Of a stretch of 20,540 nucleotides of DNA, positions 8,171-19,821 are shown one piece after another. This DNA is from a virus, in IMG/VR virus record IMGVR_UViG_3300030419_000165, positions 799 through 21,338 of that record; one strand, given 5' to 3'. A program made the translations under genes and the position numbers. Numbering within the stretch: position 1 is the stretch's first letter; each line of letters opens with the position of its first letter. Under the pieces are notes generated by a model, which was not told the DNA's origin, searched no databases, and saw only the letters and a program-made list of their open reading frames with translations.

Positions 8171-8177
8171 TAATTTA
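8168..8177. other. Convergent junction of the two modules, no terminator
   Basis: The rightward 1144-aa gene stops with TAA at 8168-8170 and the leftward membrane protein stops with TAA at 8177-8175. Only four bases lie between them. I see no GC-rich stem followed by a T-run on either strand here, so transcripts from both sides probably run into each other or end further inside the opposing genes. Confidence 0.8.
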
Positions 8178-8474
8178 AGTTAAAACAAATAAATATCTCA
8201 TGATACCCATAGCGAGTGCAACACTAGCTACCCCATTAAGCATTAACAATGCTCTATCATGCCAAAGATAAGCCATAGCTGATAACATTCCTGTGCCTAT
8301 AAATGATGCACACAAATCATAGAAAGGGAATATCCCTACTGCTCTACAGGTTATACCTGACATAATAAATAAAGACCCTACCCATTTAAGATACCATGAT
8401 AAGTCATGAACAGGTGTAACTTTATTAACGAGTGTCTCCTGACCCTTGTAACTTTCCTCTTTGCTTTCTTCCAT
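8175..8474 (-). CDS. Three-helix membrane protein of unknown function
   Basis: A 99-aa protein with a charged N-terminus of about 25 residues and three predicted membrane helices at about 28-47, 52-71 and 75-97. The motif DLSWYLKW just before helix 1 and WHDRALLMLN before helix 3 look like conserved features of a small membrane-protein family found in marine phages, with no function I can name. The ATG is preceded by GAGAAG. It overlaps the end of mazG by 50 bases. It is the last gene of the leftward operon. A holin or a host-membrane modifier are both possible, and there is no direct evidence for either. Confidence 0.7.
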   Translation of the reverse strand: MEESKEESYKGQETLVNKVTPVHDLSWYLKWVGSLFIMSGITCRAVGIFPFYDLCASFIGTGMLSAMAYLWHDRALLMLNGVASVALAMGIMRYLFVLT

Positions 8475-8784
8475 ATAACTTCTCTAAATTATTCTCCATT
8501 ATTTTACCAAGACTTACATCCATTTCTGATGCTAACATAGCACAATACCACAACACATCTCCTACTTCAGATGCTACATCATGGTCTGTGCCATCTCTTA
8601 TCTTCTTCTTAACTTTACCTGCAACCTCTCCTGCCTCACTTACAAGACCTAATGCAAGGTATGCTAATGCATCTTTCTTTGGATAGATTGCAGTAGACTT
8701 TGCACCTTCTTGATACTTCTCTGCAGTTATGGTGCTTTTATTTTTAGTTTGCATAAACTTCTTTGCTTCTTGTTCTAGATTCAT
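8425..8784 (-). CDS. mazG: MazG-like nucleotide pyrophosphohydrolase
   Basis: A 119-aa protein with the all-alpha NTP pyrophosphohydrolase signature: E50-x2-E53 in LVSEAGEVAGKVKKKIRD and E73-x2-D76 in ASEVGDVLWY, which bind the catalytic magnesium ions. Proteins of this family hydrolyse NTPs or dNTPs to the monophosphate plus pyrophosphate. Phage MazG enzymes have been linked to dNTP or host nucleotide-pool control. The length suits a single-domain phage MazG. The ATG at 8784 overlaps the upstream gene by 41 bases. An internal ATG at 8754 with a nearby AAGAAG is an alternative start that would remove ten N-terminal residues. It shares an operon with the ribonucleotide reductase, which supports a nucleotide role. 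Confidence 0.9.
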   Translation of the reverse strand: MNLEQEAKKFMQTKNKSTITAEKYQEGAKSTAIYPKKDALAYLALGLVSEAGEVAGKVKKKIRDGTDHDVASEVGDVLWYCAMLASEMDVSLGKIMENNLEKLYGRKQRGKLQGSGDTR

Positions 8785-9013
8785 TTTGCTTTACTTTCTC
8801 TAACTGTCTGTAATATGCAAAGTTATAACCTCTTTGCCACTCTCTATGTTGCATAGTGTTAGAGTGATAGGGGTTTTCTGTTGCTATAACCTTTACTCCT
8901 TTAACACTTTTAATATATTGTTTACCTCTAAACGCATTCAGTCCTCTTTCAAACTGAATACGTAAAGGTGCATCATATTTACTTAGATTCGGATTTCTTT
9001 TTCTCTTTTTCAT
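8744..9013 (-). CDS. Small basic protein resembling ribosome modulation factor
   Basis: An 89-aa protein. I take the ATG at 9013 because AAAGGAAA lies nine bases upstream; the frame could be extended to a TTG at 9031, but that would overlap this site. The N-terminus is very basic (MKKRKRNPN). The core has RG-x2-AF-x-G at about residues 22-28, then NPYHSNTMQHREWQRGYNFAYY. The order RGxxAxxxG ... PY(x)9W-x-x-G is the layout of bacterial ribosome modulation factor (Rmf), which dimerises ribosomes, and of Rmf-like phage proteins. I infer RNA or ribosome binding. The similarity is by motif only and needs a profile search. The gene lies between an unknown gene and mazG. Confidence 0.55.
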   Translation of the reverse strand: MKKRKRNPNLSKYDAPLRIQFERGLNAFRGKQYIKSVKGVKVIATENPYHSNTMQHREWQRGYNFAYYRQLEKVKQNESRTRSKEVYAN

Positions 9014-9224
9014 CTTCTTGTTTCCTTTCAAAATACTTTAGTATCATGTTAAGTTTATCGTCTGCTACTGATACCTTTTCTAACTCTGCATCAATAGCCT
9101 GTTGTATATCTTGGTGTTCTCCTATACCCACAGACCTTGTAAGTAATATCTCAACATTAGATATGTGCTTATTTATCATGCCTACATAGTAGGACTTGGA
9201 TGCTGCTAATAACATTTCTCTCAT
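8979..9224 (-). CDS. Conserved phage hypothetical protein, charged C-terminus
   Basis: An 81-aa protein with an excellent ribosome site (AAGGAG about seven bases before the ATG at 9224). The N-terminus MREMLLAASKSYYVGMINKH and the central VGIGEHQDIQQAIDAELEKV look like a family I associate with marine phages, but no function is known to me. The C-terminus is a run of Lys and Glu. It is predicted helical, with no cysteines and no membrane segment. It starts two bases after the upstream stop and overlaps the RMF-like gene by 35 bases. Confidence 0.65.
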   Translation of the reverse strand: MREMLLAASKSYYVGMINKHISNVEILLTRSVGIGEHQDIQQAIDAELEKVSVADDKLNMILKYFERKQEDEKEKKKSESK

Positions 9225-9634: not shown

Positions 9635-9815
9635 ATTTAATCTCCTTTATAATTGTAATTAAAGTTAAGAGAGCAATACAATAAAAGTATTCTTCAATCA
9701 TGCTACCCTCAAGTGCCTTGCTACCCACGATACCTGCAAACACTAACGTAAGCAGGTAAGCTAGGATAGGAATTAAGACTATAGCATTAACTAGCCTCAA
9801 TGTCAACGATTTCAC
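9597..9815 (-). CDS. Two-helix small membrane protein, non-ATG start
   Basis: The reading frame holds two hydrophobic segments: LVNAIVLIPILAYLLTLVFAGIVG and YFYCIALLTLITIIKEIKYVI, ending in a basic tail (IRRKQKEI). There is no ATG before the first segment. I propose GTG at 9815 (72 aa, MKSLTLRL...), which has AGG five to seven bases upstream and puts two positive charges before the first helix. TTG codons at 9806 and 9800 and a GTG at 9887 are alternatives. The gene overlaps the end of the RNR gene by 29 bases and the start of the nuclease-like gene by 38. Function unknown. Confidence 0.5.
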   Translation of the reverse strand: MKSLTLRLVNAIVLIPILAYLLTLVFAGIVGSKALEGSMIEEYFYCIALLTLITIIKEIKYVITIRRKQKEI

Positions 9816-11718
9816 ATACACCTGCAGTACAGGCAAGTTCTTTACTTCCACTTGTCGTGTCTTCCTTTTCAAAGTCTTGTAACCCACTCCAATTTATAGC
9901 AGGTGGCATAGCCTTTGTCAAGACATTATATTCTTCTTCTGTAATATCTTGATAAGGTGCTTGTTTATAAGTGTGCTCACTAAAAGGTAGGAAGGATATA
10001 CCTGATACTTCGTCAAAGTTTTTATATACCCATGCACCCACTTCCATCCACTCGTGTTCTTTTACAGATATAGTTACAGATGGTTTATGTTCACACCAAT
10101 GTCTTTGAAAGATTAACCAATAGTCTAACTGTTCTATTGCAGTCATTTGTGTTCTAGTAATAGCACCAACAGGAGACTTCATAGGAAAGCTAAACACAGT
10201 TGTGCTATCAGGCTTCATAACATCAGGCTCTGCAGGAATACCTGCATCTTTCATAAACTGTGTGAGTGGGTCTTTATTATCTCCACGCACAGTTCTAACA
10301 TAGAAATCATTATGTCTTGCGTGAATACCACTAGCACTATCTACTAACTGTGATACAGTTCCTGATGGTTTGATACAAGTTATCGCAGTAGATTGAGGTA
10401 TACCTAAATCTTTAGCAATCTTCTTGTTAGTTTCAATGGCTACTTCTTTTAGTTCTAACAACATTCTTTGTAAGACTTCTTTGTTGCCATTATTTAATAG
10501 ATAACAATCTAATATACCTGTAAGAGATACACCTAACAATCTTTCTTCTTCCGTATTATCTTTCCATATTTTGCGTAAGTATTTAAAATTAGTAAGAGTA
10601 GATTGAAATGTACCAAGTATTGTGGATAGTCTAACCTTTTCTTTTAGAATATCTAAATGGTCTGCTTCTCTACACACAACTTCAGTCAGATTACAGAACT
10701 GATAAGGTCTTAATATAATTTCACTACATGGATTACATCCAAAGAAATGATTAGGGTCTCGTCTACCATTCTCTTCTACTTTCTTTTTAGCAGACTTGCG
10801 ATTAAAGATACCTCGTTCTCCTGATTTAGATTCATATAGTGCAGTCCACTCTCTCATAAATGTTCCCATATCAGGTTTGCCTTTAAATGCTACAGAGTTA
10901 TTAGCCAATGCTCTTTGCCCTTCATTCTCCCACCATTGACCTGACTTTGCGTGTCGCATCAAGTCATCTCCAAGATTAGATAATGATATGAGAGCAGAAC
11001 GTCTAACACCACCGACAACAACCACCTCTCCTATTTTACACATAATGTCATGGCACTCAATAGGAAATAGTCTTCTATTCTTTGCACCTTTAAACTTCTC
11101 TACACAAAATTCAAACAGTTCTTCTAATGGAGCAGGACCACTTGCTCTACCACCAAACGTTTTGAGTCTAGCACCTGCAGGTCTTACCTGTGAAGTATCC
11201 CATTTGGGTATCTGACCTACATATAACATAGCTATTAACTCACGTAAGGCTCTACACCACCCTGTTCTACTGTCTGCAACAGTTATTACTGTAGTGCTTT
11301 TTTCAAAGTGTTCATTAACCATAGGTAATTTATCTACATTTTCTCTTTCAACAGAGAATCCTACACCTGTACCATTCATAAGTATATACATACACTCATC
11401 AAAAGAACGAGGACTATCTACAGGTATATAACTACAATTATATCCTGCTACATGGCATCTATCTAATGCTACACCTGATGTCATCAATGCTCTCATACTA
11501 GGCATGATGCCTAAAGATAATATACCATCCGATAATTTTTCTCTCAATGCCTTCGTTAAGGTATAGTTGTGCTTACCTTTTAGGTGGTTTTCCATATAGT
11601 CAAAGTATCTGTCCACAGTCTCTGACCAAGTTTCTCTACGTTCTTCATCATCTTTCCATCTAGCATATCTAGAAAGAGCAATAAAGTTTTGATAATCTGT
11701 TGGTAAATAGTTTTGCAT
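9787..11718 (-). CDS. Class II (B12-dependent) ribonucleoside-triphosphate reductase, monomeric type
   Basis: A 643-aa protein with AGGAGA before the ATG. It makes deoxynucleotides from ribonucleotides using adenosylcobalamin. Visible signatures: NPCSE at 329-333, giving the thiyl-radical Cys331 and Glu333, followed by FCNLTEV with Cys342; an early Cys in AGYNCSY (Cys95) that would pair with it; GTGVGFSVER at 116-125; PSGTVSQL at 451-458; and a C-terminal redox pair CTAGVC (Cys630 and Cys635). The pattern fits monomeric NrdJ, as in Lactobacillus RTPR and marine phages, rather than a class I NrdA, since no NrdB or tyrosyl-radical subunit is present. It sits with MazG and DUF3310 genes in a nucleotide block. 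Activity would depend on cobalamin in the host cell. Confidence 0.93.
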   Translation of the reverse strand: MQNYLPTDYQNFIALSRYARWKDDEERRETWSETVDRYFDYMENHLKGKHNYTLTKALREKLSDGILSLGIMPSMRALMTSGVALDRCHVAGYNCSYIPVDSPRSFDECMYILMNGTGVGFSVERENVDKLPMVNEHFEKSTTVITVADSRTGWCRALRELIAMLYVGQIPKWDTSQVRPAGARLKTFGGRASGPAPLEELFEFCVEKFKGAKNRRLFPIECHDIMCKIGEVVVVGGVRRSALISLSNLGDDLMRHAKSGQWWENEGQRALANNSVAFKGKPDMGTFMREWTALYESKSGERGIFNRKSAKKKVEENGRRDPNHFFGCNPCSEIILRPYQFCNLTEVVCREADHLDILKEKVRLSTILGTFQSTLTNFKYLRKIWKDNTEEERLLGVSLTGILDCYLLNNGNKEVLQRMLLELKEVAIETNKKIAKDLGIPQSTAITCIKPSGTVSQLVDSASGIHARHNDFYVRTVRGDNKDPLTQFMKDAGIPAEPDVMKPDSTTVFSFPMKSPVGAITRTQMTAIEQLDYWLIFQRHWCEHKPSVTISVKEHEWMEVGAWVYKNFDEVSGISFLPFSEHTYKQAPYQDITEEEYNVLTKAMPPAINWSGLQDFEKEDTTSGSKELACTAGVCEIVDIEAS

Positions 11719-18924: not shown

Positions 18925-19821
18925 TTATATACTCTTATTATAATTATTTCTTAATGTCAAGGCATTTTCTGCACTTGCATATGTATTTTTCATGTAAGGT
19001 TTTACTGACTGTGGGTTTGCGTGTCCTGTAACAGACATGATTTGACCCATAGGCACACCTGCCTCTACCATTTCAGTAGTTCCTGTTCTTCTTAAATCAG
19101 ATATTCGTAACTCATTAGGTAATCCTGCTAGTTGTATAACTAATCTAGCAACTTTGGATAACCTTTGCATAGTGTATGGACTATATGTGCCTTTCATAAC
19201 AGTAGGATAGGGTGCAACATAAGGTTGAAAACCATAATCTTCTGCCTGTTTTTTAAGCATTTCTAATAAGTCATCTGATATAGGCAAGTGAACTACACTT
19301 CTTCTCTTTGACTGCTCTAAATTTAGCACACCTTTATCAAAATCTATGCTAGAAAACTGTAACAATCTCATATCCCCTACCCTTTGACACCATTCGTATG
19401 CCATTTGCACTATCAATCCCAAGTTTCTATACTTGAAATCTCCATAAGCATAGTTAAGAAATTTCCTAACTTGTTCTTTTGTCCATGTGACATTCCTTAC
19501 ATGAGTAGTTTTTCTTTTGAAAGTAGAGAATGGATTGCTTTCTGCATACCCCATTTCCATTCCAAAGGAATACATCTTACGAGCAACTGCACACACAGAG
19601 TTTGCCAAGTAGATTCCTCTACTCAACCACACTTCATACCCTCTTCGTGCAGTCGCACCTGTCATTTTAGTAAGACATATTTCTGCCATCTTTTTGCCAT
19701 TAACTTCTGTGTCTAACAGAACACCTGCACAATATTGATAATCGTGTTTAGTTTTATCTGCTAAACTATTGAAATCGTTAGACAAAAAGTATTTATCATT
19801 AAGCGATTTTAAGTTCATCAT
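18925..19821 (-). CDS. int: Tyrosine recombinase (phage integrase)
   Basis: A 298-aa protein. The N-terminal about 110 residues form an SAM-like DNA-binding domain (KTKHDYQYCAGVLLD, then YLANSVCAVARKMY). Catalytic residues: Arg147 in CQRVGDM, beta-hairpin Lys172 in SKRRSVVHLP, Arg244 in SDLRRTG, His267 in VTGHANP, and Tyr276 in KPYMK nine residues later. The position normally held by His in HxxR is Ser241. It cuts and joins DNA at attachment sites. Pelagiphage-type podoviruses are known to carry such integrases. I see no tRNA, repressor or excisionase in the window and could not place an attachment site. A tandem ATG start at 19821-19816 makes the exact first residue uncertain by one. Confidence 0.92.
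   Translation of the reverse strand: MMNLKSLNDKYFLSNDFNSLADKTKHDYQYCAGVLLDTEVNGKKMAEICLTKMTGATARRGYEVWLSRGIYLANSVCAVARKMYSFGMEMGYAESNPFSTFKRKTTHVRNVTWTKEQVRKFLNYAYGDFKYRNLGLIVQMAYEWCQRVGDMRLLQFSSIDFDKGVLNLEQSKRRSVVHLPISDDLLEMLKKQAEDYGFQPYVAPYPTVMKGTYSPYTMQRLSKVARLVIQLAGLPNELRISDLRRTGTTEMVEAGVPMGQIMSVTGHANPQSVKPYMKNTYASAENALTLRNNYNKSI

Follow-up and report, generated by a model that had tools for sequence, protein, structure and literature searches.

A small gene of HMO-2011-type marine phages encodes a protein with a predicted Rmf/CrpP fold in which the RMF dimerisation residue is replaced

Does a small phage protein that resembles the ribosome modulation factor RMF also act as one? This question is raised by a short gene in a 20,540-nucleotide stretch of viral DNA (hereafter the window), which comes from a virus record of 21,338 bases, has a G+C content of 35-36% and is a fragment of an HMO-2011-type phage. 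The DNA polymerase encoded in the window shares 62.7% identity with that of Puniceispirillum phage HMO-2011, 62.1% with that of CRP-345 and 61.5% with that of CRP-1. The hosts of these nearest named relatives are marine bacteria, namely Ca. Puniceispirillum and Rhodobacteraceae, in keeping with the ocean setting that an earlier sequence-only reading had assumed. Besides the gene under study, the window encodes a ribonucleotide reductase (RNR), a MazG and an integrase, and the immediate surroundings are as follows.

8744 to 9013, minus strand: phage gene with a predicted Rmf/CrpP fold, 89 amino acids plus stop, identified by its frame, relatives and dN/dS.
9019 to 9028, minus strand: AAAGGAAACA, with the Shine-Dalgarno-like AAGGA, 5' of the ATG.
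8425 to 8784, minus strand: MazG-like pyrophosphatase gene (phrog_229, E 1.1e-35), sharing 41 bases with the end of the Rmf-like gene.
8979 to 9224, minus strand: upstream gene of unassigned function (phrog_1811, E 3.5e-21), sharing 35 bases with the start of the Rmf-like gene.
9787 to 11718, minus strand: RNR gene (phrog_367, E 1.1e-190), upstream in the same minus-strand gene run.

Further along, a 99-amino-acid frame with hydrophobic stretches and without PHROG match (8175-8474) overlaps the end of MazG, and an integrase gene at the far end of the replication genes (18925-19821) suggests a temperate phage.

The 89-codon gene is real. Its open frame extends on the minus strand from an ATG at 9013 to a stop ending at 8744, exactly as first proposed, and this ATG is preferred over a TTG at 9031, which would give 95 residues, because the spacing of the AAGGA site suits the former. 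The gene is also under purifying selection in 10/10 pairwise comparisons with relatives: the dN/dS values, obtained with a Nei-Gojobori type script over codons 1-75, which leave out the MazG overlap and include the 35-base upstream overlap, lie between 0.05 and 0.13, with dS approaching saturation in some of the pairs (up to 1.99). From the motif on which the sequence-only reading was built, the NPY, the nine residues that follow, the W-x-x-G-Y and the basic start (MKKRKR) are indeed present, whereas the proposed RGxxAxxxG has to be corrected, the actual RGLNAFRG corresponding to RGxxAxxG. In view of the conserved relatives, the dN/dS values and the suitable distance between AAGGA and ATG, this motif appears to be more than a product of chance, which was judged unlikely also on the basis of the profile controls described below.

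Viral contigs scanned with the window protein yielded 109 relatives, 80 of which were kept, and two scans with wider alignments returned at least 586 and 384, with 80 kept of each, although these sets may overlap; from the collected loci, 180 distinct family frames were taken. Six residues, G24, F28, E58, W59, R61 and G62, are kept in 27/27 and 73/73 relatives, with identities down to 23%. The named carriers are HMO-2011, CRP-345, CRP-1, ctYwJ313, CRP-3, CRP-212 and CRP-235. The gene occurs in 6/11 named isolates whose polymerase is at least 36% identical to that of the window (ctYwJ313 is not among the polymerase matches); it was not found in CRP-603, CRP-2, CRP-207, HTVC033P and CRP-738 by tblastn of the whole records and by a profile search covering 18-20 kb of each. 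HMO-2011 phage1322_20, CRP-345 gp38 and CRP-1 gp29 are family members annotated as hypothetical, near RNR and with MazG directly downstream. In CRP-3 (L085:2495-2680), CRP-212 (L086:2486-2680) and CRP-235 (L342:7353-7541), the members are unannotated frames lying mostly in an annotation gap directly after RNR, with a MazG or pyrophosphohydrolase gene on the other side of RNR, while the unannotated frame of ctYwJ313 (L084:2459-2662), also near RNR, sits between two annotated genes and overlaps the second. The gene is thus common in a large group of ocean phages and mostly unannotated, and the present analysis provides a testable identity for a small gene which a dominant group of marine phages carries recurrently and which four deposited genomes leave unannotated.

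The neighbourhood recurs as well. MazG lies immediately downstream in 48/72, 62/66 and 22/69 loci of the three scans (those with more than 500 bases of downstream flank), and RNR is present in 73/73, 55/75 and 59/73 loci (those with more than 2500 bases of upstream flank), these counts being lower bounds since single window proteins served as queries at E 1e-4, with RNR counted anywhere in the locus. Among the 247 loci underlying the neighbour counts are the named phage records and perhaps copies of the window itself (L088, L089). In CRP-603, CRP-2 and CRP-207 (L337, L338 and L339), the position behind RNR is taken instead by a glutaredoxin and a phosphate-starvation gene, and this position resembles a site at which cargo is exchanged.

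At the level of structure, the model of the window protein, based on a 73-sequence alignment (pLDDT 80.9, pTM 0.62), predicts helices at residues 17-30 and 54-88 and strands at 33-37 and 40-44, and thereby two helices joined by a linker, as in RMF. The corresponding parts of the gene are listed below.

8921 to 8965, minus strand: codons 17-31, covering the predicted first helix (residues 17-30 of the model) and its G-x-x-A-F core; G24 and F28 are invariant in 73/73.
8882 to 8917, minus strand: codons 33-44, inter-helix insert, a beta-hairpin in the window model.
8867 to 8875, minus strand: codons 47-49, NPY linker, with the proline in 47/54.
8750 to 8854, minus strand: codons 54-88, predicted long second helix, with the E-W-x-R-G-Y-N signature at codons 58-64 (8822-8842).

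The insert is found in 58/58 distinct relatives of the window-protein scan and is absent in 116/179 family members measured. This short form occurs in all named carriers but HMO-2011 (six were measured and CRP-235 was judged by eye), and the model of one representative (L095; 59 sequences, pLDDT 84.6, pTM 0.66) predicts helices at 22-34 and 46-74 and a short helix at 14-17.

Comparison of the two models with known structures points to RMF. With plain Foldseek, the window model gave nothing below E 1.2, with no RMF among the best 50 of 111 matches, and the short form placed RMF first, but at a non-significant E of 2.5. In a structural second look, which covers only the chains ranked highest by Foldseek, the top three of 229 aligned chains for the window model are RMFs (Z 5.0, 4.9 and 4.9; next 3.2), as are the top two of 26 for the short-form model (Z 5.5 and 5.3; next 2.3), these top chains representing two proteins, the E. 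coli RMF (9iot_y, 6h4n_v) and the Vibrio RMF (2jrm). A Z of about 5 is modest for a small helical protein, and the weight of this result comes mainly from the RMF chains standing together above the rest. A library of viral structures gave nothing below E 0.17. The predicted fold, which had been named as a check of the Rmf relation, hence speaks for it.

The profile searches lead in the same direction, with a weak signal for the single sequence and a better one for the family. Against the Pfam family RMF (PF04957), the window protein scores 14.7 bits (E 0.033), below the gathering cut-off of 27.9 bits; RMF is nevertheless the only Pfam family listed for it at E up to 10, a search in which the S30AE domain of HPF and RaiA was not found. 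The NCBIfam models, including NF041887 and NF041886, gave no match to the window protein at E up to 10. Among the relatives, RMF is matched below threshold by 10/27 at E up to 1 and by 31/59 at E up to 0.1, the best E being 2.1e-4 (for scale, an E of 2.6e-4 corresponded to 21.4 bits in another RMF search of this study), and in both sets by more relatives than any other Pfam family. Weak matches were also obtained to NF041887, Rmf_like_phage (7/27 at E up to 1; 2/59 at E up to 0.1), and to NF041886, Rmf_CrpP_fam (3/27 at E up to 1), the best E of any relative for these two models being 0.014.

More telling is the comparison of profiles with hhalign. A profile of 54 family sequences, from which a tandem copy (L224) and a Serratia sequence (L087) had been left out, was aligned to 32 Rmf/CrpP-like bacterial proteins chosen by an RMF profile, with no reference to the phage family, from the phylum of a marine metagenome-assembled genome (G001, a Rhodobiaceae bacterium). 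The alignment scored 36.5 (E 5e-7), and 0/150 column-permuted controls reached this value, their maximum being 11.5. Against 34 canonical RMFs alone, the same profile scored 19.7 with a probability of 12%, and 1/150 permuted controls scored as high. The 32 Rmf/CrpP-like proteins themselves join canonical RMF at E 1.7e-14. With a weak direct match to RMF and a strong one to the Rmf/CrpP-like proteins, the link to RMF itself therefore seems to run via intermediates. Taken together, sequence profiles and models indicate that the Rmf resemblance is genuine at the superfamily level.

Does the shared fold imply a shared function? The accessible part of a review (PMC8778775) describes thirteen fully conserved residues and links R3, K5 and R11 to ribosome binding and G23 and R45 to dimerisation, for which E. 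coli RMF requires R45; in our set of 34 canonical RMFs, the 13 invariant positions are M1, R3, K5, R6, D7, G16, G20, G23, C29, P30, W40, G43 and R45. When compared to RMF (PF04957; 6h4n, 6h58, 9iot, 4v8g, 2jrm), the phage family has the same succession of helix, P-[YF] linker and helix, and keeps the equivalents of G16, W40 and G43 in 54/54 sequences and of P30 in 47/54, the window protein having all four. In contrast, the equivalent of R45 is N in 38, D in 16 and R in none of the 54, and G20 is replaced by F in 54/54. R11 is replaced in 51/54 (the residues listed are I 37, F 7, V 3, R 3, M 2 and K 1, the window protein having I). G23 is kept in 37/54, which thereby show the first-helix spacing of RMF (G, six residues, G), but is K in the window protein. 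The stretch ahead of helix 1 has a net positive charge in 47/54 and a charge of zero in 7/54, the N-terminal tail not being alignable to R3 and K5, the tail residues of RMF that contact helix 28 of the 16S rRNA. The family also has invariant residues of its own, F28, E58 and R61, which give a signature of F followed by E-W-x-R-G; it further shows a KYDAPL-type lead-in in many members and, in the clade of the window, the inter-helix insert. The RMF scaffold is kept and the dimerisation residue is not, and the protein should not be filed as RMF, since it fails the curated cut-off and has R45 and R11 replaced. Given these same replacements, the ribosome dormancy or shielding that had been suggested for the protein is not supported.

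The reading that we favour, with a rough probability of 0.4, is that the gene defines a phage subfamily of the Rmf/CrpP fold, whose members would be accessory proteins binding nucleic acid or the ribosome without forming 100S dimers. According to this proposal, a small basic protein of two helices and an NPY linker, encoded in HMO-2011-type phages among DNA-replication and nucleotide genes (RNR, MazG), would most likely dock on the small ribosomal subunit or on another RNA-protein target of the host. Contact would be made through the basic N-terminal tail and the long second helix, and translation of the host could thereby be tuned during infection without 100S dimers being built. RMF binds near the anti-Shine-Dalgarno region. 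Shine-Dalgarno-like sites precede 14/22 of the window gene starts examined, this gene included, against 5.8 in shuffles (0/2000 as high); masking of the anti-Shine-Dalgarno would therefore also hit the phage. A more specific scenario, in which HMO-2011-type phages carry an RMF-fold ribosome-binding factor devoid of the dimerisation residue that biases or pauses translation in RMF-less hosts while phage nucleotides are made, is rather unlikely. If ribosome binding holds, the protein would count as a translation factor that phages bring into hosts mostly devoid of RMF; if it does not, the family calls for caution in reading phage RMF-fold matches as hibernation factors. In both cases, the RMF fold, a module found in phages and bacteria and also at the ends of larger proteins, is separated from the RMF function of making 100S dimers.

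A link to nucleotide metabolism fits the gene order just as well as a ribosome role does. The most serious alternative, which we regard as possible though somewhat doubtful, is that the Rmf/CrpP-fold module makes no contact with the ribosome and instead partners or regulates RNR, MazG or the replication proteins, its effect being on DNA or on the metabolism of nucleotides. Besides the proximity to RNR and often MazG, and the position directly after RNR in CRP-3, CRP-212 and CRP-235, two larger frames are consistent with it. In a 273-amino-acid frame (L334:970-1788), an RMF-like domain (26 bits, below the cut-off) lies C-terminal to a GapR-like DNA-binding domain, which makes a DNA-side role a serious rival, and in L328 an RMF domain lies at the end of a frame behind phrog_3657, a phage family without assigned function. 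Nevertheless, gene order is weak evidence in compact phages, and no fusion to RNR or MazG was met in an unsystematic survey. In addition, RNR is present, within the stretch examined, in 4/5 of the named isolates lacking the gene, and therefore does not need it.

As compared to the accessory role that we favour, a true functional RMF, dimerising host ribosomes into 100S particles or protecting them in starvation, is improbable. The fold, the core motif and the basic N-terminus would agree with such a role, and so would the scarcity of RMF in potential hosts, to which the function would be new. In searches centred on G001, RMF scores above the cut-off in 84/398 genomes of its phylum, in 4/289 of its class (presumably Alphaproteobacteria, since G001 is a Rhodobiaceae bacterium) and in 0/61 of its order, so that, if the host of the window resembles this group, the protein would operate in cells that normally lack RMF. 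However, the residue replacements described above stand against it, and 51/61 genomes of the order encode the C-terminal domain of long HPF; in most other bacteria, according to the accessible part of PMC8778775, this long form needs no RMF to make 100S ribosomes.

A chance resemblance, without any kinship to the Rmf/CrpP superfamily, is very improbable. The single-sequence scores below curated cut-offs and the non-significant plain Foldseek results would be compatible with it, as would the weak matches to P63C (6/59 members, best E 0.0032), a candidate identity that was set aside, yet both the structural second look and the profile comparison, with its permuted controls, speak for kinship. 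Two other candidates were also rejected: a 2TM effector of a defence library, matched weakly at E 0.011, and a phosphofructokinase, the one match (E 1) of a PDB sequence search with the family profile, which starts in an apparent expression tag and is attributed to chance. Finally, a CrpP-like small enzyme or stress factor is the least probable identity: NCBIfam groups CrpP with the Rmf fold, 9/59 relatives match NF041886 (E up to 0.1; best 0.022) and 1/59 matches NF033696 (E 0.084), and the nine residues between NPY and W are a spacing that we take to be close to that of CrpP, but all these NCBIfam matches are weak and the likeness comes from family models and not from the sequence of CrpP itself.

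In the literature, phage proteins of the RMF superfamily are already known from Agrobacterium phage Milano and from NCBIfam, and what is new is the subfamily of HMO-2011-type phages, marked by a signature of its own and, in the clade of the window, by the insert. Two potential RMF-superfamily proteins are mentioned for Milano in the accessible part of PMC6588377; likened to the present family by description only, they are a precedent for such an annotation in another phage. The NCBIfam family NF041887, defined as Rmf/CrpP fold protein, differs in that it is matched weakly by relatives and not by the window protein. Concerning other hibernation factors, an HPF of phage origin failed, when tested, to become a stable part of E. 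coli ribosomes, according to the accessible part of PMC6375957, and the TayeBlu phage is reported to have a homologue of recently described hibernation factors, for which the accessible part of PMC12772287 cites a 2024 paper on a new family. The main text of a paper on HMO-2011-type phages, as far as it is accessible (PMC9038755), has no occurrence of the string 'ribosom', and the accessible parts of PMC5014867, on T4 in stationary phase, and of PMC11100668 hold nothing bearing on Rmf in HMO-2011-type phages.

Several variants of the domain were observed along the way. On one contig, a second, divergent Rmf-fold frame (L034:2606-2809; E 1.7e-10 to the family) lies just upstream of the main frame, and in another locus the domain occurs in tandem within one frame (L224:3390-3833), seemingly as an exact repeat that is possibly an assembly artefact. 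In the Serratia phage Smarc1, the hypothetical protein QOI70018 (L087:1009-1650) carries near its C-terminus an RMF domain that scores 35.3 bits, over the Pfam cut-off.
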